Shown: in pieces, positions 1 to 11,648 of the stretch | How the letters are laid out: the number at the start of each line of letters is the position of its first letter | How positions within the stretch are numbered: the stretch's first letter is position 1 | Origin: a virus | DNA: 24,259 bases | Strand: one strand, 5' to 3' | Virus record (IMG/VR): IMGVR_UViG_3300031999_003766 | Coordinates: 1 to 24,259 of that record | Notes under the pieces: model-generated | Database searches by the model: none | What the model was told of the DNA's origin: nothing | The model's input: the letters and a program-made list of their open reading frames with translations, nothing else | Translations under genes and position numbers: made by a program

Positions 1-1466
1 GATGTCTCGAAATCGGCAAATACAGTCCCATCTGTACGGGTGATGCGACACTGCGGATTCGACGCATCCGCCACGTCGAAAGCGCGGTCGGGGTGGGTGG
101 TGCGGACGCCGACATTCCCGGTAGTGGCAAGATAGAAATATGGCGCAGACGAAACGTGCAACTCAAGCGTTAATCCGTCAATGACGGTTTTCTTGTACTG
201 GTTCAGTGTCCTGTCATACGACACGATGAGTCCACGGCTGAGCGATGTACTATACGCCATCTCTATGGCTGGACCGCCGCTCTCGGTCGCATCTATCACG
301 CCCCCCTTGGACCGGAACATTCCGCTCTCAAGTTGCAAGGTTCCCCTTCGGGCAAGGGTCATATTGGCAGACGGAACGCTGTTGGATATGGTGTAAAATA
401 CCATGTTTGCGTTCATCGCGGTAGCGGAGTCCACCACGACCGTGGATGCTATTAGCGCACCCCTCTTTTCCGCGTTGGATGTCCCCGTGCAACCGAAAGC
501 AATGGCCCCCAGAGTGGTTCCGACCTCGGTAAGGCTATTGTTGATTGCTATCAACCCATATCGCCCTGTTCCCCCAAGCTGATACTTTGTGAAAGTTCCT
601 CCGTCTCCCATCGCCGTCACCGTGTTGGTGCCGAGCGTCGCCAGATAGTTTTCGGTGTTGATTGACCAAATCGCGCTGTTGTCGCTCCGGTATCCGGCGA
701 GCAGTCCGGCGGATTGGTCGTACCAAATACGCGCCGCACCCGTAAGTCCAGCCGCAATATCGCCTTGCCCCGCCGCGTCGGTGACGGTGCCGACATTTAC
801 ATACTGAGTCACCTGCTCCGTGCCGGTGATGAGGAGGTTGGTCCCAGAGAACGTCATGTTCGCGGAGCCGGTGAGGAGGCCAGCTACACCGCCGTAGACT
901 ACATGAGTCGCTGTGATACCGGAGTCGGTGAGGTTGGCGAAGGTGGGGGATGCGCCAGTGTGGATATCCTGAGGGAGCGAAAGGGTAACATCCGTGGAGC
1001 CCCACAGAACGTCAGACCCGTTCGCCACGCTCACCTGATTCGAGGTGCCCAGAATGTCGGCAGTGTGAGTGTGGGAGTGGGCAGACGTGGCGAAGGCCGC
1101 CGCATGACTGCCGTCCAGCGTGTCGGCGTCGAGCCCGCTTCCCGGCCCCTGCGGGATGTCCGCCACCTGGAGGGTATCCCACGCTGGCGCCGCACTTAGC
1201 GCGCCGTCTCCGACCTGGCGGAGGAATTTGCGGGTCGTCGTGATGTTGCCTGCGAGCTTGTTCCACGCGGGAGTCGCGTCGCCGTACAGGAGATCGCCGA
1301 GCGTGGGAACGGAGGCGGCCACGAGAAGCTTATCGTTCGCCGCCGAATCCGCGTCGTGCCATCCGTCCGTCTTGGCGTAGAGTTCGCGCTGACCTGCCGG
1401 AGGAGCGGAAGGCTTCGCGCCCAGCTCGTACAGCCGCTTCACGCTCTGGAGTGAATCGTCAGGCAC
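1..1466 (-). CDS. Tail fibre protein, partial (C-terminus beyond left edge)
   Basis: An uninterrupted frame of 488 codons runs from a GTG at 1466 off the left edge, so the end is missing. The start follows GGAGG by 6 nt and overlaps the glycosyltransferase stop by 8 nt. The protein is glycine-, serine- and threonine-rich. Residues 111-119 read GLDADTLDG, a motif typical of phage fibre repeats, and a His-rich HSHTH stretch follows at about 130-134. Near the visible end, NVGVRTTHPDRAFDV resembles the NVGIGTTSP-type motif often found shortly before a C-terminal chaperone or S74-type autocleavage domain, which would lie outside the window. The role is probably host-surface binding at the distal tail. 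Base composition falls towards the left edge, as expected for a fast-exchanging host-range gene. Fibre identity is well supported; receptor specificity cannot be read. Confidence 0.85.
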   Translation of the reverse strand, partial: MPDDSLQSVKRLYELGAKPSAPPAGQRELYAKTDGWHDADSAANDKLLVAASVPTLGDLLYGDATPAWNKLAGNITTTRKFLRQVGDGALSAAPAWDTLQVADIPQGPGSGLDADTLDGSHAAAFATSAHSHTHTADILGTSNQVSVANGSDVLWGSTDVTLSLPQDIHTGASPTFANLTDSGITATHVVYGGVAGLLTGSANMTFSGTNLLITGTEQVTQYVNVGTVTDAAGQGDIAAGLTGAARIWYDQSAGLLAGYRSDNSAIWSINTENYLATLGTNTVTAMGDGGTFTKYQLGGTGRYGLIAINNSLTEVGTTLGAIAFGCTGTSNAEKRGALIASTVVVDSATAMNANMVFYTISNSVPSANMTLARRGTLQLESGMFRSKGGVIDATESGGPAIEMAYSTSLSRGLIVSYDRTLNQYKKTVIDGLTLELHVSSAPYFYLATTGNVGVRTTHPDRAFDVADASNPQCRITRTDGTVFADFET

Positions 1467-2199
1467 GCTTCACCTCCAGGGATTTCATGCACGCCTCCAC
1501 CACGTTCTCGGGGAAGACGTGCCAGAAGTTATCAAGCGGGGTCGTGCTCTCGTAGGCGAACGAGCGCGAGTGAGTCGGGCCGAAGAGAACAACCTGGGGA
1601 GTCCCGACCGAGGCGGCGAGGTGGAAGCTCCCGCTGTCGTTTCCCACGTAAAGGTCGCACTCCGCGAGGATCGCCGCCGTCTGGCGGACGTGGAGGCCCT
1701 GGCAGAGCGGGCGGTCGGAGGAGAGCTTCGGAGTACGCTTCTCGCCGCCGCCGATTTCCACGACGGAGACGTCCCGGCCTTGGAAGAGCTTGACCGTCTC
1801 CTGGAACTTGGCGAGGGGCCACATCCGCTCCGTCACCATCGCGTGATAATCCATCGCCACGATGGGGCGCGAAAGTCCGCGCAGGGCCATCGGCCCGAAT
1901 CCGCGCTCCCTGTCCGTGAGGAATATCTCCGGGCAGGTATTCAGGCATTTGAAGCCAAATTCCGCCGCCATCTGCGCCGGCATATTCCCGAGTTCGGGAT
2001 ACTTCTTGTGGTTCAGCTCGACCGTCCCGACAAGTTCCTCGACGCCCCATCCGACGTAGGGATTCCGTTCCCAGACGTAGGGGTGCCTGTGGCTGTCGAC
2101 GGAGATCAATTCCTCCGGCCACTTGCGCTTGAACTCGCGCACGAAGGCCGTCACCGCCAGGTGATCGCCCAGGCCGTTCGCCTTGACCAGAATCCTCAT
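1459..2199 (-). CDS. GT9-family (heptosyltransferase-like) glycosyltransferase
   Basis: 246 aa. The start MRILVKANGLGDHLAV matches the N-terminal nucleotide-sugar-transferase strand and GLGD loop of the GT9 (ADP-heptose:LPS heptosyltransferase) family. YVGNDSGSFHLAASVGTP at residues 184-201, followed by VVLFGPTHS, is the conserved C-terminal donor-binding signature. It is shorter than the usual bacterial enzyme of about 320-350 aa, so the middle is compact. The ATG lies 7 nt after AGGTGA and 7 nt past the GT2 stop; the end overlaps the fibre start by 8 nt, so it is co-translated with a GT2-like enzyme and the fibre gene. It is probably cytoplasmic. Substrate is unknown: it could glycosylate the fibre or another virion protein, or remodel host surface sugar. 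Family call is firm, role is inference. Confidence 0.85.
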   Translation of the reverse strand: MRILVKANGLGDHLAVTAFVREFKRKWPEELISVDSHRHPYVWERNPYVGWGVEELVGTVELNHKKYPELGNMPAQMAAEFGFKCLNTCPEIFLTDRERGFGPMALRGLSRPIVAMDYHAMVTERMWPLAKFQETVKLFQGRDVSVVEIGGGEKRTPKLSSDRPLCQGLHVRQTAAILAECDLYVGNDSGSFHLAASVGTPQVVLFGPTHSRSFAYESTTPLDNFWHVFPENVVEACMKSLEVKRA

Positions 2200-2206
2200 C
2201 TCACCG

Positions 2207-2920
2207 TCACCTGATCCACGCCATCACGCGGCGCCCGTATTTCTCCACGAGGTGGCACTTGCTCTCGAAGGCCAGTCGCCCCAGTTCGGGGCGCTCCCGG
2301 TAGCCGGAAAGGAAGCTCTCGTGGTTCACGACCACGCGCTGATAGATAGTCACGCGGTATCCCGAGTCGATTGACCGGATCGCGTAATCGGTGTCGTCGT
2401 ATCCGTAGCCGGTGAATCCCTCATCGAACGGCCCCACCTTTCGGTAGAGGTCCATCGGCAGGAGCGCCGCGACGAGAGTGAAGTCCGCGGGCTGGATGTC
2501 CGTCATCTCCCACGGAGCACCGGCGGCAAATATCTGGTGGCCCAGCACGTCCCCCTTGAGCGCGGGGGCGAGGATGCAGCGGTCTCCCATGTCGGCCGAG
2601 ATGCGTACCATCTCGTCGATCCCGAGCGGAGTCATCAGGAAAGCGTCGTCCTCGACCAGGAAGGCATACGGGGTTTTGACCTGGGCGAGGCCGAGATTCC
2701 ACGCGCGCGACATGATGAAGCGCCCCGGGTTCATCGCCACCGCCTCGGCGCCGAGGTCTTTTGCCTCCGCCGCCGTCGCCTCGTTCCCCGCGACCACGAT
2801 CGCCCGGAGGCGTCCGTAGTGGGCATCGCGGATGGATTTCCAGCTCCGGCGCAGCCGCTGGGGCCGATAGGCGGGAGTCACGACGGTCCAGTCCTCGACG
2901 TTCACGGGGTTCGCCGCCAT
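2207..2920 (-). CDS. GT2-like (GT-A fold) glycosyltransferase
   Basis: 237 aa. WTVVTPAYRPQRLRRSW at residues 11-27 is the nucleotide-binding first strand of a GT-A fold. FLVEDDAFLM around 87-96 supplies the metal-binding acidic (DXD-like EDD) motif, and GYGYDDTDYAIR at 171-182 matches the acceptor/catalytic-base segment (G-x-DD-x-D) of family 2 enzymes. No membrane helix or signal peptide is seen, so it is a soluble cytoplasmic enzyme. The start overlaps the stop of the 188-aa tail gene by one base (TGATG), with GGGGGA 8 nt upstream. The GT9 gene starts 7 nt after its stop. The pair sits inside the tail tip/fibre module, which suggests modification of a virion protein or host glycan, but donor and acceptor are unknown. 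Confidence 0.85.
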   Translation of the reverse strand: MAANPVNVEDWTVVTPAYRPQRLRRSWKSIRDAHYGRLRAIVVAGNEATAAEAKDLGAEAVAMNPGRFIMSRAWNLGLAQVKTPYAFLVEDDAFLMTPLGIDEMVRISADMGDRCILAPALKGDVLGHQIFAAGAPWEMTDIQPADFTLVAALLPMDLYRKVGPFDEGFTGYGYDDTDYAIRSIDSGYRVTIYQRVVVNHESFLSGYRERPELGRLAFESKCHLVEKYGRRVMAWIR

Positions 2921-5144: not shown

Positions 5145-5510
5145 CTACGGGAGGTCCACCACGTCATCAATCATGAAATCAACGGAACGGGAATCTGTGG
5201 GGGGCGTCCCGGCCACGTAGCCCGCGGCCCACCAGCGGATCTCGCCCGGCCATGTCCCGGGGCAGTTGCACGTCTGGGCCGCCGTGAGCGCGAACTCGTA
5301 CTCCCCGTTTAGCCCGTCCGTGACGGAGGCGTCGACGTCGAACCAGGCCCGGGAATCCGGGAGCTCCACGTCCTGCTTCACGATCAGCTTGATGTCGTAG
5401 GCGCTGATGTCCAGGACCGCCTCGGGATCCGCCTCGTTCCGCGCATCCTTCATCACGCGCTTGATCGTCGGCGCCGAGTTGTACCGGACCTTGATCGTCT
5501 CGTCGGACAT
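5145..5510 (-). CDS. BppU N-terminal-domain-like baseplate protein
   Basis: 121 aa. The pattern IKVRYNSAPTIKRV, then a segment around AYDIKLIVKQDVELPD, then WPGEIRWWAAGYVAG, resembles the N-terminal Ig-like domain of phage baseplate upper proteins (BppU type), in which beta strands carry a parameterised polymer attachment. This is recognition by eye, not a profile match. The ATG overlaps the stop of the 820-aa hub gene by one base (TGATG) and is preceded by AGGGA at 8 nt, so it is coupled to the hub. It is far shorter than a complete BppU, so it may act as a small adaptor linking the hub to the following tip proteins. Confidence 0.55.
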   Translation of the reverse strand: MSDETIKVRYNSAPTIKRVMKDARNEADPEAVLDISAYDIKLIVKQDVELPDSRAWFDVDASVTDGLNGEYEFALTAAQTCNCPGTWPGEIRWWAAGYVAGTPPTDSRSVDFMIDDVVDLP

Positions 5511-7972
5511 CAGGATTCCCTTTCAGTCTGGAGGGCCTCGCGAAGATCCGCCTTGTCCGTCCGCCGGGGGGCCCGGGCCATCGGCGCGAGGAGGGGCATC
5601 CGGGCGCCCGGGGCGTTCACGGAGACGTGAGTCTGCCCCACGTCGCCGTCCCAGTCGTGCTGAACGGAGCAGATCCCGGCGTCGAGGACGCACTTCCGGA
5701 GGCCGTGGAGCTCCATGACCCAGCCGGGGACGATCGCGGGCCCGGCGAGCATCGCGGCCGCCTTGCCCTTCGCCTCCGAGTAACAGGCGTTGTAGTTCAC
5801 GGGGTTCCCGTTCTCCTGGAGGTACTCCCTGGATTCCATCCGGACCATGTGGGCCTTGATCGGGCTGGAACGGTGACAGCCTCCGAAGGTCGGTTTCGCG
5901 TCCGAGGTCGGGTCCCCGCCGTCGTCGGCGAAGAATAGGAAGTTCGTGAAGGCCCCGGCCCAGGAGCCCTTGATCTCGTGGCCGAACGTGACCACGACGG
6001 CGCCGTTCGCGATGACGTGGACCGAGTCGCCGTTGAAGAAAAAGGGCTTGTCGATCGTCACGAGGGGAACCGAGGATTCGATCAGCCCGGTTTTAGGGTC
6101 CTTGACCCACGCCTTCTTCGTGGCACACTGGCCGGTGTTGAAACGGGCGAGGAGAGAACCGTTTTTCTCGTAGTTGGCCTTCATCTCCCCCATCTTGTTC
6201 CTGATATCCAAGATAGCTTTTTCTTGGGATTCGATCTCCTTGTCGAGATGCTGGATCATGGAATCGTACCGAGCCTTCGCCTCCTTCGCGGCCGCGCTTT
6301 CGGTGATAGCCTTTTTCCTCATGTCCTCGGCCATGACCTGGCCGAAACGCTTTACGGCGGCCTTGTAATCAAAGGCGGGAGTCGTTTCACCGGGTTCCAC
6401 GCCGAACTTGGCGAGCTTCGCGTTGTCGAGAGATTTCTCTAATTCTTTATTTGCCTTGTTCAGCTCGTCGTAGGTGTCCTTGTTCTTCTTTTCGTATTCA
6501 TATTTCAGAATTTCGAGCTGATCTTTCACCCCGACGGCGCGGGCCATAAGGGCCTCGTGTTCTCTCTCGAATTCCTTCCATGTCCTGAAGAACTTCTCCC
6601 CAACGAAGTTAGCGCGAACGACCGGAGGGAGGAGAACGAAGTCGTCAACGTCCCCCTTAGACTCCTTGTCCTCCGGGTGCTTCTTCGTGAATTCCCCCTG
6701 AAGCTCCTGGAGATACCACGCGGAATCAACCATCGGAAGCCAGGGGACAAGCTCGATCACCGGATCGTCGGTGAGGCGGCCCGTCCCGATCACCTTCCCC
6801 GCCGGGGAGATCATGAATGTCGGGAGATAGTACCGATAGGCCATCTTGAGGGCGTCTCTCCTCCCGTTGTGAGACATGGCGGATTCGTGCGTTGAGGGAA
6901 CGGGCGGAACGTCCGCGTACTGGCGCGGACCGCCAACGAAGACGTGACGGTTCAGCTCCGACAGGGAATAACCCCAGGCCGCGCAGCGGTTTTCCAGTGT
7001 GTACCAGTTGCCGTCCTCGGGATCCTGGATGACCGGGACACAGTGGGCGCTCTCCCTCTGGACGCGCTTCCCGCCAAGAACGCAGACCGCCGAGGGTCTC
7101 TTGGTCGGCGTCGACGTAAGCCGCTCGTATTGCATCTCGCCGGGGGAAACGCTCTCGGGCTTTCGGGGGGCCGTTGCGAGCGTCTGCTTCCCGATCCGAT
7201 TCGAGAACTTGAGATTGACGGCGTATTTCCCGTCGGGCTGCATCTGGGCCTTGAGCCCGAAGCGTTCCAGGAACTTTTCGAGGTGCTGAAGCGCGGGTTC
7301 CCCCTGGCCCTCGATCCCCTGCGGCGAGTCGAACTGCATGACATTCACGTCGCACTCGCCCGCAATCGGCGGGGACCCGGGGAGTTGGGAGAAGAGGAAT
7401 TCGAGGACGTCCATGAAGGGCCAGGGATTCTGATCCTCCTTCAGGGTGTCGTAGTCCCATGCCCCGTTCTTTTTCCGGCAGTTGATCCGGCAGAGGAGGC
7501 CACCCTGATCGTAATACTGCCGGATGTCGGTGAGCGGGACACGGACCAGGCCCTCGCGATGCTCCAGGATCGTCGCGAGGTCGCGCGTCGTTTCCTCGGT
7601 CCCGACGTCCACGTAGACGTCCGAATACTTGATCTCGCGGACCGTCTTCCCGGACTTGTCGTCTACCGTGCGGAGGATGAGGTCCCCAGAGAGGTTGAGG
7701 CCCTCGGATGGGTTCGGCATGGGACCCCGGTCCGCCGTCGTGGACGCAGACTTCTTGAATCGCTCCCAGGTCCGGATGTCCACGCAGCCGTCATGCTCGA
7801 CGCCTCCGACGGCTTCCCAGGGGATCGATCGGCCCTTGATCTCGATCTGACCCATGTCCTCAAGCGGAATCTCGACCACCCCGTGCTCGGGTTGCAGGCC
7901 GTCCGAACGCCGGTAGGCCCCCCGGACGCACTTGTACCCCTGGTAGACGATCTCGCAACGAAGGACCGTCAC
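5510..7972 (-). CDS. Tail hub / tip protein with inserted coiled coil
   Basis: 820 aa, GTG start 5-6 nt after AGGTGA. The N-terminal ~430 residues look like a globular beta-rich tail hub protein with scattered cysteines. Residues about 458-605 change to a long charged helical stretch (for example EYEKKNKDTYDELNKANKEL) with heptad-like spacing, a probable coiled coil. Residues 610-820 return to a globular domain containing GDSVHVIANGAVVVTFGHEI. Its size and position after the tape-measure slot and before BppU-like, tip and fibre genes match a central tail tip or baseplate hub. The helical insert is encoded by DNA less GC-rich than its flanks. Its start codon lies only about 10 bp from the -35 box of the divergent plus-strand gene. 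Hub assignment is by position and architecture; no family was recognised with certainty. Confidence 0.65.
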   Translation of the reverse strand: MTVLRCEIVYQGYKCVRGAYRRSDGLQPEHGVVEIPLEDMGQIEIKGRSIPWEAVGGVEHDGCVDIRTWERFKKSASTTADRGPMPNPSEGLNLSGDLILRTVDDKSGKTVREIKYSDVYVDVGTEETTRDLATILEHREGLVRVPLTDIRQYYDQGGLLCRINCRKKNGAWDYDTLKEDQNPWPFMDVLEFLFSQLPGSPPIAGECDVNVMQFDSPQGIEGQGEPALQHLEKFLERFGLKAQMQPDGKYAVNLKFSNRIGKQTLATAPRKPESVSPGEMQYERLTSTPTKRPSAVCVLGGKRVQRESAHCVPVIQDPEDGNWYTLENRCAAWGYSLSELNRHVFVGGPRQYADVPPVPSTHESAMSHNGRRDALKMAYRYYLPTFMISPAGKVIGTGRLTDDPVIELVPWLPMVDSAWYLQELQGEFTKKHPEDKESKGDVDDFVLLPPVVRANFVGEKFFRTWKEFEREHEALMARAVGVKDQLEILKYEYEKKNKDTYDELNKANKELEKSLDNAKLAKFGVEPGETTPAFDYKAAVKRFGQVMAEDMRKKAITESAAAKEAKARYDSMIQHLDKEIESQEKAILDIRNKMGEMKANYEKNGSLLARFNTGQCATKKAWVKDPKTGLIESSVPLVTIDKPFFFNGDSVHVIANGAVVVTFGHEIKGSWAGAFTNFLFFADDGGDPTSDAKPTFGGCHRSSPIKAHMVRMESREYLQENGNPVNYNACYSEAKGKAAAMLAGPAIVPGWVMELHGLRKCVLDAGICSVQHDWDGDVGQTHVSVNAPGARMPLLAPMARAPRRTDKADLREALQTERES

Positions 7973-7981
7973 GGATTCACC

Positions 7982-8010
7982 TTGCCTTCCGCCGGGACCA
8001 GGGCTATAGT
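7982..8010 (+). promoter_or_regulatory. Sigma70-like promoter for the plus-strand membrane gene
   Basis: TTGCCT (7982-7987) and TATAGT (8005-8010) are separated by exactly 17 bp. The expected transcription start, about 8016-8017, falls at the ribosome site GGAGG (8017-8021) that precedes the ATG at 8026, giving a leader of about 10 nt. This would let the gene be expressed separately from the minus-strand late operon. Motifs are seen directly; activity is inferred. Confidence 0.55.
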
Positions 8011-8025
8011 TCCCTTGGAGGTTCT

Positions 8026-8346
8026 ATGGATACTGCACAGAGGGAGCGATGGAGGGGGAAGGGATTCGGCCCGTCCTTCTGGTTCGTCCTCGCCTTCCTG
8101 GCAATCGCCCTCTTTGCGGTCACGACCTACGGGCTCGTCCAGTATCAGCGCAGGAATTCGGAGGCTCGCGCAAATGTCGAGAGGGCCCGGCAGAGGGTCG
8201 AGGAAATAAAACAACGCCGCGAGGACGAGGAACGCGAACGCCAGGCCCGCCTTGAAAAAGCTCTGGAGGAATCCAAAGAAAAGGCGCACCGAGATTTTGA
8301 GGCCTGGTACATGGAGAGAATCCGGGCTATTAACGAGCCGAAGTAG
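8026..8346 (+). CDS. Membrane-anchored coiled-coil protein mimicking the tape-measure-slot C-terminus
   Basis: 106 aa, the only convincing plus-strand gene. GGAGG lies 4 nt before the ATG and a promoter with ideal spacing precedes it. Residues 17-40 form one strong hydrophobic helix, with positive charges on both sides so topology is unclear. Residues 46-90 are a charged coiled coil. The last 56 residues align without gaps to residues 147-202 of the 202-aa minus-strand protein at 9370-9978: 25 identities, including RVEEI, RRE, and F-x2-WY-x-ERIR-x3-EP at both C-termini. In two conserved blocks, 9 of 18 identical residues use different synonymous codons, so this reading frame is under protein-level selection. 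It faces a hydrophobic minus-strand ORF (7969-8352) judged to be mainly its shadow. Likely a cargo gene expressed in lysogens or early infection, perhaps blocking tail-protein function at the membrane; the role is hypothesis. Confidence 0.75.
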   Translation: MDTAQRERWRGKGFGPSFWFVLAFLAIALFAVTTYGLVQYQRRNSEARANVERARQRVEEIKQRREDEERERQARLEKALEESKEKAHRDFEAWYMERIRAINEPK

Positions 8347-8348
8347 AC

Positions 8349-9368
8349 TCATCCGCTCACCGCCCCGTCCCCGGGCGCGCTCCCCAGGCTGATGAGGTTG
8401 TGGTTGTCCGAATGCTTCGACGACGGCTCCCCCTGGGTTGACTTCCAGACCTCGTGATAGTCCAGCCGGTACTCCCCATTCCTCGGATCGCCGTTGATGA
8501 CCGGGCCCTCTCCCCGGCGCTCCATGTCCGGGCAGCGCCGCATGGTCTCCGATTCGGTGAAGTGCTCCCCGGGCGGTTGCATCGCGGGATCGTAGCTGAT
8601 GATCGTCCCCTCGACCTCGGCGATGGAGGCGGATCGTTGCTTCGCGTACAGGACGGGGTCCGCGTTCCCGGCCGACGGGCGGTCGATGAATCCCTTCCCG
8701 GGCTTCCAGGTGACGCGGCAGACCCAGGACTTCACTCCCTTGGTATCGGCCTCCCAGATCCAGACCCCGGTCGCCCGCTTGTCCTGGGGGAACTTCTCCG
8801 TATCTTCGATCGTGTACTTCTCGGCCGGCCGGAAGCCCATGACGGCGCTCAAGGCGCTCGCGACGGAGGTTGATTTCGCCGTGGCCTTCCAGACCTTCCG
8901 GACGACGCTCCCGTTCTTCTTTGTGACCGAGAGAGAGGTCTGGAATTCGTAGAGCGTCTCGCCGCCTCCGCTCGCATTGCCCTTGCCCTTAAAGGCGATC
9001 GTGAAGGCGTAGCGCCAGTGGCCTTTCCCGCTCCCGCCCTCCTCGCGCCCGAGCGAGCGGAATTCGGTGACGTAGGGGCCGTCGAATCCGTCCTCGGGCT
9101 TGAGGTCGAAGCGCGTCGTTCCGTCCTGCTTGATCTGAACGCGGACGGCGAGCGTCTGCTCGGTGACGAGTTCCGAGTACGTCACGAGGTTCGCGCCGAC
9201 GGTGGCGGGCGTGGGATCGACGAGAATGCCCTCGACGTCGAAGAGGTAATCGACGCTCTCAATGTCGCCGTTCTCGTTGGTATTGGCCTTGAAGGCGCTG
9301 TCGAAGCGCATATTCGCGTCGATAGTCCTGGCGGCCGCGCCTTCGTCGATGATTACGCTCCAGCCCAT
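8349..9368 (-). CDS. Distal tail / baseplate protein, unknown
   Basis: 339 aa, ATG one base after the stop of the 202-aa tape-measure-slot gene; the nearest purine-rich site is GGAG at 12 nt. The sequence is beta-rich and soluble, with many short strands and glycine turns, and no membrane segment or enzyme motif was recognised. The C-terminal 80 residues contain a D/R/H-rich stretch (for example PGEHFTESETMRRCPDME). In lambda-type tails the genes directly after the tape measure encode distal tail and tip-complex proteins, which is the best inference here. Its stop lies 2 nt from the stop of the convergent plus-strand gene, without a visible terminator between them, so late transcripts must run through that gene in antisense to reach the hub gene. 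Confidence 0.65.
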   Translation of the reverse strand: MGWSVIIDEGAAARTIDANMRFDSAFKANTNENGDIESVDYLFDVEGILVDPTPATVGANLVTYSELVTEQTLAVRVQIKQDGTTRFDLKPEDGFDGPYVTEFRSLGREEGGSGKGHWRYAFTIAFKGKGNASGGGETLYEFQTSLSVTKKNGSVVRKVWKATAKSTSVASALSAVMGFRPAEKYTIEDTEKFPQDKRATGVWIWEADTKGVKSWVCRVTWKPGKGFIDRPSAGNADPVLYAKQRSASIAEVEGTIISYDPAMQPPGEHFTESETMRRCPDMERRGEGPVINGDPRNGEYRLDYHEVWKSTQGEPSSKHSDNHNLISLGSAPGDGAVSG

Positions 9369-9369
9369 G

Positions 9370-9978
9370 TTATTGAGGCTCCATCAAGCTCCGGATGCGT
9401 TCCTGATACCAATTCTGGAAGAATTCCCGGGACTCGACCTTCGAGATCGCGTTGTATTCCTCCATACGCTTGGCTTTCTCCTCCACCTCCCTCTCCCGCC
9501 TCTCCAGGATCTCCTCGACCCTGCGACGATTGAGGATGACCTCGGCCTGCGCCTTCTCGATCCGCTCGTTAAGCCGCTTCACGGCATGGGCGAGTTCCTG
9601 GACCGTTGCCAGCGTCGCAAAGACAACCGCGCCCGGGGGGCCTCCGATCATGGCCCCCGTGACCGCCGCCGTCCCGATGTGCGCGATCGGCTGCGCGGCC
9701 TCGGGAATGCCGAACTCCGAGACGATCATCCCGACGCCGAACGCGATCCCTGTCTTGATCCCCGTCTTCGTGAGGCGGTGCTCGATCCGGCTCGTTACCC
9801 GCTCCAGGTTCGTCGCCTGCGTCTCGGCAATCTTGAGGCTGGACTGGAGGCGCGCGACGGCCTGGCGGATCCCCGCCGTCTTCTGGTCCACCTGGAGAAC
9901 CTTCGCGTCCACCTGGGCGAGCTGGCCCCCGACGGCGCTCAGGTCGACGCTCAGTCCTGCGCGGATCTCTTCGCCCAT
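9370..9978 (-). CDS. Tape-measure-slot coiled-coil protein
   Basis: 202 aa. Residues 11-70 form a predicted helical coiled coil. Residues about 72-128 are an Ala/Gly/Ile-rich hydrophobic region (for example GIAFGVGMIVSEFGI). Residues 132-185 are a highly charged coiled coil, and the end is F-x2-WY-x-ERIR-x3-EPQ. Helices flanking a hydrophobic zone, plus its place after tail tube and chaperone-slot genes, fit a tape-measure protein, which sets tail length and can enter the host membrane during DNA ejection. It is very short: typical siphovirus tape measures exceed 600 aa. At about 0.15 nm per residue it would specify a tail of only about 30 nm. The C-terminal 56 residues have a membrane-anchored paralogue at 8026-8346. 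It could instead be another tail-assembly protein. Confidence 0.6.
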   Translation of the reverse strand: MGEEIRAGLSVDLSAVGGQLAQVDAKVLQVDQKTAGIRQAVARLQSSLKIAETQATNLERVTSRIEHRLTKTGIKTGIAFGVGMIVSEFGIPEAAQPIAHIGTAAVTGAMIGGPPGAVVFATLATVQELAHAVKRLNERIEKAQAEVILNRRRVEEILERREREVEEKAKRMEEYNAISKVESREFFQNWYQERIRSLMEPQ

Positions 9979-9982
9979 GGTC

Positions 9983-10414
9983 TTACGCCACCTTCTCCTC
10001 GGGCTTTGGGGTCTCCACGCGCCGGGCCTGGAGCTTCACGATCGCCTCGCGCGCGAAGTCCTCGAGGATGGCGCCGTCGAGCCCCGCGATCGCCTGGGCG
10101 AGCGGCCCCACGGGCTCGAAGAAGTTCGCGATCCCCCGGGCCACCTGGACGAGGGTCCACTCGGACTTCTCGTACTCCGCGAGGAGCGTGTTGAGCCGCG
10201 AGCAGGCCCCCGCGTAGTCGACGGCCCCGCTCTCGAACCGCCGGCGGGCCAGGAGGAGAACGGAGAAGACCCCGTTCGCGCGCGTGAGGGCCTCCACGAA
10301 GCCGTCGAACTGGGCCCCGTCGACCCCCCGGTAGGTGAAGAACGTCTCGCCGAACCGTACCCCGGGCGTCTCGCCCCCGTCGATCCAGGCCCAGGGCGCC
10401 TTCTTCTCGTCCAT
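9983..10414 (-). CDS. Putative tail assembly chaperone-slot protein
   Basis: 143 aa, ATG 7 nt after AAAGGAGA. It is soluble and mostly helical: residues 30-125 alternate hydrophobic and charged residues (for example FVEALTRANGVFSVLLLARRRF), and the tail is a K/E/P-rich stretch. It lies between the structural genes and the tape-measure-slot gene, where lambda places gpG/gpGT. No slippery heptamer or overlapping extension frame is seen, and only 4 nt separate it from the next ATG, so there is no room for a frameshifted T-like domain. The chaperone role is inferred from position only. Confidence 0.5.
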   Translation of the reverse strand: MDEKKAPWAWIDGGETPGVRFGETFFTYRGVDGAQFDGFVEALTRANGVFSVLLLARRRFESGAVDYAGACSRLNTLLAEYEKSEWTLVQVARGIANFFEPVGPLAQAIAGLDGAILEDFAREAIVKLQARRVETPKPEEKVA

Positions 10415-10439
10415 GCCCGTCTCCTTTCGTGACCCGCTT

Positions 10440-11648
10440 CTACACGGTGATCGCGTCCGCCAGGCTGTCGGTGAAGAGGTTCGAGCCCGACTCGGGGAGG
10501 CTCGCCCGCCTCATGTGGGAGAGCTTCGTGGCGAACTTGCCCGCCTCGTTGTTCGTGAGCGCGACCGTAAAGCGATCTCCGAGGCGCGGGGTCAGGATGT
10601 CGAACGTGATGTCGTTGTCCTCGTCATCGACATGATCGAGTAGCGCGTGGGCGGCCGCCTTGTCGAACGTGGCCTGGAAGCGCGTCCCGTTCTTCATGGT
10701 CTTGTCGATCGCGGAGGTGCTGGATGTCCCGCTGATGGTCGAGTCGCTGCCGACTTTCGTCGTGCGGTCGGAATTGTTGTACCACTCGATGAGCCAGACG
10801 TTGGCGGCCCGGCGGACGACCCGGACGCAGAGGACGCCGCCGTTCATGTCACCTTCCTTCGGGGTCGAGATCGTGGTGGCGGCGGCGACGAAGATCACTC
10901 CGGTATCCCCGCTCTTCGTGGGGGCCGCCAGACCCGGGCGCGTGAGGATCGTCGTGAGACCCGTCGGGCCGTCCTCGTGGGACTTCTCGCACGTCAGATC
11001 GTTGTCCGCCTCGATGATCCTCGTCCCGTCCGGGAGGGGCAGGGGAAGCTCGATCGCGAGCTTGAGCTTCGGGGCCGTCACGTCCTCGGAGACGACGGTG
11101 ATGACGAGCGTCCCCTGGAGGGTATGGCTGATCCCCGCCATGGAGGTCTTCGCGAGGGTCCCGCGGTTGCCGCTCTTGGCCGTGAGGGACCCGCAGGCGA
11201 TGACGTTCGGGGTGACGTAATAGGAGTCCGCGACCATCTCCCGCCGCAGGGCGCCCCAGATGCCGTTCCGGGCGATGATGGAGATCGCGCCGTCGATGTC
11301 CTCGTAGTCGTAGTCGATGGCCCCGCCGGCGGCCTTCTCGTCCGAGGCGGACAGGTCCGCCTTCAGGAGCCCGAAGAAGCCCGCGTCGCTCTCGACCCCG
11401 CTACGCCAGGCCTGCCACTCGCTGGCGATCTTGGCGGCGAGGGTGTTCTGGAGGTAACCCGCGAGCGTCGTGTAGACGTTCTTCTCCTCGGTGTCGGACA
11501 GCCCGAAGCCGTTCGTCTTCGAGAGGATCCGCGCGTAGTGGGTCGAGCTCGAGGCGAGGGCGGCGTGCTCGTAGAACTTCTTGAGCGAGTCGCTCACGAT
11601 GAGCAGGGTCCCGAGCTGGGTCGGGAAGGAAGCGTATGCAAGGCCCAC
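10440..11648 (-). CDS. Phage structural (tail) protein, unknown
   Basis: 402 aa, GTG start 6 nt after AGGAGG. The first ~100 residues are helical (for example KKFYEHAALASSSTHYARIL), followed by beta-rich domains with Thr, Ser, Asp and Gly, including VITVVSEDVTAPKLKLAIELPLPLPDGTRI. No cysteine clusters or enzyme motif. Its position directly after the tail tube gene and before the chaperone slot, a strong ribosome site and large size suggest an abundant virion component. Candidates are a second tube-like subunit, a tail-surface decoration or a connector; no family was recognised. The lack of a sheath-size gene (about 450-500 aa with tube partner of about 170 aa) argues against a contractile tail, though a distant sheath cannot be wholly ruled out. 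Confidence 0.65.
   Translation of the reverse strand: MGLAYASFPTQLGTLLIVSDSLKKFYEHAALASSSTHYARILSKTNGFGLSDTEEKNVYTTLAGYLQNTLAAKIASEWQAWRSGVESDAGFFGLLKADLSASDEKAAGGAIDYDYEDIDGAISIIARNGIWGALRREMVADSYYVTPNVIACGSLTAKSGNRGTLAKTSMAGISHTLQGTLVITVVSEDVTAPKLKLAIELPLPLPDGTRIIEADNDLTCEKSHEDGPTGLTTILTRPGLAAPTKSGDTGVIFVAAATTISTPKEGDMNGGVLCVRVVRRAANVWLIEWYNNSDRTTKVGSDSTISGTSSTSAIDKTMKNGTRFQATFDKAAAHALLDHVDDEDNDITFDILTPRLGDRFTVALTNNEAGKFATKLSHMRRASLPESGSNLFTDSLADAITV

Follow-up and report, generated by a model that had tools for sequence, protein, structure and literature searches.

A predicted membrane-anchored paralogue of the tape-measure-slot C-terminus, inverted within the tail module of a divergent temperate phage clade: a possible superinfection-exclusion protein

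Why should a tailed phage carry, against the direction of its tail genes, a small gene whose product ends like the protein in its own tape-measure slot? The question is raised by the window, the whole stretch of 24,259 nucleotides that was analysed, which is a 24.3-kb tailed-phage fragment. Its head module is of the lambda type, the tail module that comes after it is highly divergent, and both lie entirely on the minus strand. The head module encodes the terminase gpA, a lambda-family portal and a gpE-like capsid (a weak match), with further genes in the protease slot and the decoration slot. The gene at 8026-8346 is the sole plus-strand gene called in the window, and its inverted orientation relative to the tail genes, pointed out in an earlier note on this DNA, is the same in a relative. 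Only three contigs carry this gene together with the gene for the protein in the tape measure protein (TMP) slot: the window, IMGVR 3300032046_004608 and IMGVR 3300037851_000418 (G001). The second of them adds little because it is identical to the window across the inverted gene, and the evidence on the pair rests on two independent sequence pairs, those of the window and G001. With its terminal repeats, the 45.4-kb G001 is effectively a complete genome; it encodes two integrases, one of them a tyrosine integrase, and an HTH protein that resembles a repressor. The phage type is temperate, as seen in this relative rather than in the window fragment.

Is the inverted gene a gene at all? High-GC DNA gives rise to many long shadow frames, among them numerous plus-strand ORFs of 100-600 aa in the window. 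In G001, an inverted 106-aa gene is kept with 68% identity, paired with a TMP-slot protein of its own, and comparison of the plus frame between the two phages gives a dS of 0.87 and a dN of 0.23 (dN/dS 0.26). A 127-aa minus-strand ORF on the opposite strand was considered as the true gene, since it fits the gap with ATGA- and GTGA-type overlaps, yet it was rejected on its dN/dS of 1.66 and its negative codon score. Thus, 8026-8346 is a genuine gene under purifying selection, as the earlier note had maintained when it took the plus-strand frame to be real. The expected co-occurrence of the two proteins in related phages is also borne out: they are found together in every contig covering the region.

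Table 1. Features around the inverted gene, in positions of the window
Feature	Position	Strand	Basis
820-aa tail gene, other flank of the inverted gene	5510-7972	-	84% identical in G001
Antisense 127-aa open frame, judged a non-gene	7969-8352	-	dN/dS 1.66; negative codon score in both phages
Sigma-70-like promoter of the inverted gene, TTGCCT-17-TATAGT	7982-8010	+	Consensus match
Shine-Dalgarno GGAGG, 4 bases upstream of ATG	8017-8021	+	Sequence; identical in G001
106-aa predicted membrane-anchored TMP-terminus paralogue	8026-8346	+	Intact in three contigs; positive codon score
Predicted membrane helix, residues ~17-39	8074-8142	+	Kyte-Doolittle 2.36-2.43 in both relatives
Last 56 residues of the 106-aa protein, homologous to the TMP-slot end (RVEEI..RRE...WYxERIR...EP)	8176-8343	+	
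339-aa tail gene between both paralogues	8349-9368	-	No family match; conserved in G001
202-aa tape-measure-slot protein, with a coil at either end and a hydrophobic middle	9370-9978	-	Position, architecture
Last 56 residues of the TMP-slot protein (the part copied)	9373-9540	-	

How firm is the likeness between the two proteins? The earlier note had aligned their last 56 residues end to end, without gaps and with 25 identities, and the recomputed alignment is the same, the identical residues sharing a codon in 10 of 25 cases. The Smith-Waterman local score of the 106-aa protein against the TMP-slot protein is 133, and none of 5000 shuffles exceeds 64; anchored at the ends, the alignment scores 114, compared with 32 at the next-best offset, and 5000 shuffles that preserve the pattern of hydrophobic, acidic and basic residues reach at most 101. 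Compared with 580 proteins from these phages and related prophages, the 106-aa protein scores 133 and 137 against the two TMP-slot proteins and no more than 58 against any other. Profile-profile comparison (E = 9.4e-15) aligns residues 42-106 of the 106-aa protein with residues 138-202 of the TMP-slot protein, about 65 residues in all. A chance coiled-coil likeness was considered and rejected, as the class-preserving shuffles, the off-register alignments and the other proteins of the 580 all score lower. The C-terminus of the 106-aa protein is a diverged paralogue of the TMP-slot C-terminus, a conclusion stronger than the earlier note had stated. Recent gene conversion between the copies was also rejected: codons are common to only 10-12 of 25-29 identical residues, and DNA identity between the copies is so low (0.46-0.57) that no such event is needed. 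The earlier picture of a membrane helix in place of the tape-measure body holds in part. The helix is predicted, but a simple swap is not what is seen, because the TMP-slot protein is also hydrophobic before the shared coil; its most hydrophobic stretch, at residues ~105-126, has a Kyte-Doolittle value of 1.4 versus 2.4 in the 106-aa protein.

The distribution of conserved residues differs between the paralogues. Between the window and G001, the TMP-slot protein is conserved apart from residues 169-188, where 3/20 are identical, and the end that comes next is near-frozen (13/14), while the 106-aa protein has 10/20 identical residues in its mid-coil and 8/14 at its extreme C-terminus, where WYxER and EP are kept. 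The residues invariant across all four proteins include the very TMP end (WYxER...EP). Each copy is slightly nearer to the TMP of its own phage, with a summed score of 249 versus 225 over the 56 residues. Since an exact test gives p = 0.13, co-evolution of the copy with the TMP is suggested rather than established, and the closer cognate match is a trend only.

What is the protein that has been copied? The 202-aa gene has the chaperone-slot gene (143 aa) ahead of it and the 339-aa and 820-aa tail genes behind it, and the TMP slot was assigned by this gene order, the neighbouring genes having no family match. The protein is helical, with a hydrophobic middle that is glycine-rich, and the G001 protein is 78% identical to that of the window. 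The PHROG 4704 tape measure family matches the TMP-slot proteins weakly (E 0.011-0.022), and AlphaFold2 yields a poor model (pLDDT 55). On position and architecture, the 202-aa protein is likely to be the TMP. A tape measure this short is plausible as such by analogy with the Rhodobacter gene-transfer agent, which has one of about 202-aa size. A 74-aa family of unknown function, phrog_9104, matches both TMP-slot proteins (window 9370-9978; L015 8585-9193) at the junction from the hydrophobic part to the coil, residues 123-155 of the 202-aa protein, with E values of 0.003 and 1.5e-4. The TMP-slot proteins of window 9370-9978 and L004 10001-10597 differ by four residues, GIKT, which are repeated in one and not in the other; an indel of this sort could change tail length slightly.

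The 106-aa protein consists of a short basic N-terminus, one predicted membrane helix and a charged coil, and AlphaFold2 models it as one continuous helix over residues 16-103 with a mean pLDDT of 86. In the window protein, the net charge is +2 on either side of the membrane helix, so that its topology, which would help to choose between possible functions, is ambiguous. None of the PADLOC defence-family profiles matches it above noise (best 2.4e-4, over helix and coil only), and a search of solved structures gave no useful match. The promoter-like site upstream of the gene is the only one within 7500-10500, where 0.3 would be expected, and both of its hexamers are unchanged in G001; 49 of the 53 leader positions are identical between the two phages, compared with 73.5% identity in the gene itself. 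On the plus strand, a terminator-like site was not found directly after 8346. The GC content of the gene is 0.586 in the window and 0.548 in G001, versus about 0.65 in the flanks, and its GC3 is 0.71 and 0.645, versus 0.82-0.88 in three neighbouring tail genes. In G001, the only minus-strand genes called are the inverted gene and the tyrosine integrase. Homology, constraint, the conserved promoter-like site and Shine-Dalgarno sequence, low GC3 and the minus-strand placement in G001 argue for a moron-like gene and TMP paralogue rather than chance; apart from the lack of a terminator, its features are those of a moron in a temperate phage. Its inverted position, its own promoter-like site and the temperate type of the phage make up the setting in which superinfection-exclusion morons are known.

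What, then, might such a protein do? We tentatively propose, as the likeliest of the readings considered and by analogy with known exclusion systems, that it is a prophage-expressed inner-membrane protein that blocks the DNA entry of related phages through its TMP-like terminus. The inverted gene would be expressed from the prophage and its product located in the inner membrane, where the TMP-like terminus would either join an incoming TMP and be a non-functional subunit there, or occupy a membrane partner that the terminus of the incoming TMP needs. The DNA entry of related phages would thereby be blocked, and the 106-aa protein would be in effect a naturally encoded dominant-negative TMP fragment. 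The earlier note had described a constrained, predicted membrane-anchored paralogue of the TMP-slot C-terminus, and this description agrees with the dN/dS of 0.26 and with the retention of the gene alongside the TMP-slot protein in G001; its idea of a decoy is compatible with the evidence and may be one of several modes for such a copy. More doubtful, though possible, is the specific idea that the phage carries a natural dominant-negative of its own TMP, in which a prophage-expressed, membrane-held terminus poisons or pre-empts the entry conduit of relatives, by self-mimicry rather than as a dedicated binder. Counting against exclusion by exact mimicry, the extreme C-terminus is less conserved in the copies (8/14) than in the TMPs (13/14), because an exact mimic might be expected to be at least equally conserved. 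The 106-aa protein is provisionally classed with TMP-directed superinfection exclusion by function alone, without being assigned to any known family.

Several known systems resemble the proposed one in part. Three of them, HK97 gp15, TP-J34 Ltp and P22 SieA, are encoded by prophages, lie in the membrane or are anchored at the surface, and target the TMP or ejection proteins, in many cases by way of the C-termini (PMC10883804; PMC3952083). HK97 gp15, which is small and predicted to lie in the inner membrane, comes from a temperate phage; it blocks DNA entry, and hybrids with the HK022 tail tube and TMP genes escape the block (PMC10883804). The 106-aa protein is likewise a small, predicted membrane protein of a temperate phage, but it is a TMP-slot paralogue. 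We know of no report of gp15 homology to a TMP. Ltp of the Streptococcus phage TP-J34 is prophage-encoded and envelope-anchored, and its proposed target is the C-terminal end of the TMP (PMC3952083). Prophage origin, as in Ltp, and envelope anchoring, which is predicted in the 106-aa protein, are common to both; however, Ltp is a TMP-binding surface lipoprotein with repeat domains, whereas the 106-aa protein has a membrane helix and is itself TMP-like. P22 SieA, another exclusion protein of the inner membrane, is escaped by changes in the C-terminal regions of gp16 and gp20 (PMC10883804). It is a membrane exclusion protein, which parallels the predicted inner-membrane location of the 106-aa protein, but it targets the ejection proteins of a short-tailed phage, and no TMP-derived domain has been described in it. 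The SNIPE nuclease also acts at the inner membrane and associates with the TMP (PMC13190303). The closest functional precedent is an artificial one: according to the title of a study cited in PMC8310164 and PMC7354561 (Ruboyianes 2009), phiX174 pilot proteins with N-terminal deletions inhibit early stages of replication. As far as that title goes, a truncated conduit protein in the cell inhibits early infection in both the phiX174 H case and the proposed one, while the H deletions are laboratory constructs of a different, tailless phage.

Could the anatomy of the 106-aa protein be accounted for without exclusion? The main named alternative is a spanin: Rz-type spanins likewise have a membrane helix at the N-terminus and a charged coil after it, and the window protein weakly matches PHROG Rz-like spanin profiles (best 5e-5), which would suit an inner-membrane spanin or other lysis protein whose likeness to the TMP-slot protein reflects shared coiled-coil ancestry with no functional linkage. 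However, the best match of the G001 copy is a family of unknown function and its best spanin match is only 0.0099, and the TMP-slot protein weakly matches a spanin family too, so that these matches are probably compositional. The gene is not part of a lysis cassette and opposes the late operon from its own promoter-like site, its product has a TMP-related end, and there is no lipoprotein partner close by, as no lipobox ORF is found in window 7501-9000 or G001 501-2000; elsewhere in G001, at 12.9-14.0 kb, a protein built of a helix plus a coil is accompanied by a lipobox ORF. A lysis role is accordingly very unlikely. The common terminus implies a common partner, and the gene for a possible one, the 339-aa protein, lies between both copies, which would fit a membrane-held assembly or regulatory factor that binds the tail partner of the TMP terminus and acts on tail assembly by guiding, delaying or stopping it. 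Orientation opposite to the tail genes and the gene's own promoter-like site argue against such a factor, which we regard as distinctly improbable; to our knowledge, no membrane factor of siphophage tail assembly has been reported.

Two further roles deserve consideration. By hetero-oligomerisation, the 106-aa protein might shield the membrane of the host against the TMP of the same phage, as an immunity to a pore-forming tail protein; its anatomy would be the same as for a decoy, and the TMP-slot protein is hydrophobic in its middle, but nothing indicates that the TMP-slot protein does harm by itself, and self-protection seems highly unlikely. A lysogenic-conversion membrane protein, in which a TMP-derived coil was recruited as a generic scaffold for a role unrelated to infection, would accord with the moron-like context, the low GC3 and the diverging mid-coil (10/20 identical). 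It would not readily explain why the residues invariant in all four proteins include the very end of the TMP as well as the generic coil, and we consider it unlikely.

If exclusion by the TMP-like terminus is true, a phage can build an entry inhibitor out of its own injection machinery, and docking at the inner membrane, or assembly within it, would be the task of the TMP C-terminus; this offers a general and readily testable recipe in model phages. The known TMP- or ejection-directed exclusion proteins reviewed here have been described as binding or blocking their target as dedicated proteins rather than as copying it, and no description of a natural TMP-derived exclusion protein was found in the literature searched, which was mostly outside subscription journals.

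The clade that carries the pair is otherwise nearly unknown. Scans of viral contigs for further relatives returned only the same two contigs and a 5.2-kb portal fragment. In INPHARED, neither the 106-aa protein nor the TMP-slot protein nor a 327-aa tail protein has a match, and the 339-aa and 820-aa proteins have no meaningful one; homologues of the tail proteins of the clade were not found in 50,697 phage records. A screen of 392 Planctomycetota genomes, together with genome scans, gave head homologues or noise and nothing else. The nearest capsids outside the clade, at 43% identity, lie in Planctomycetota genomes (10 of the 392 sampled), and the host is therefore probably a planctomycete. 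The capsid-related Planctomycetota prophages have no tail genes in common with the clade. One such planctomycete prophage, distant but with a related head, has a similarly short tape-measure-slot gene (225 aa) in a similar tail gene order (L024 13185-17660); its tail proteins have no detectable homology to those of the clade, and it lacks the inverted gene, which is present in all close relatives examined.

Some other features of these genomes may be mentioned. A candidate lysis cluster in G001 (L013 12882-13979) holds a helix-plus-coil protein and a 140-aa membrane protein, with an 83-aa lipobox frame inside the cluster, and no recognisable endolysin was seen in it. Two to four glycosyltransferase-like genes, assigned by eye and differing in number between the window phage and G001, directly follow the tail genes (window 1459-2920; L013 6490-9368). 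Finally, there is hardly any difference between window 7907-8793, which spans the inverted gene along with a large part of the 339-aa gene, and the corresponding part of 3300032046_004608 (L003 1921-2807), whereas the adjacent downstream block at 6930-7905 has clearly diverged between the two contigs, a pattern that points to recent mosaic exchange around the inverted gene.
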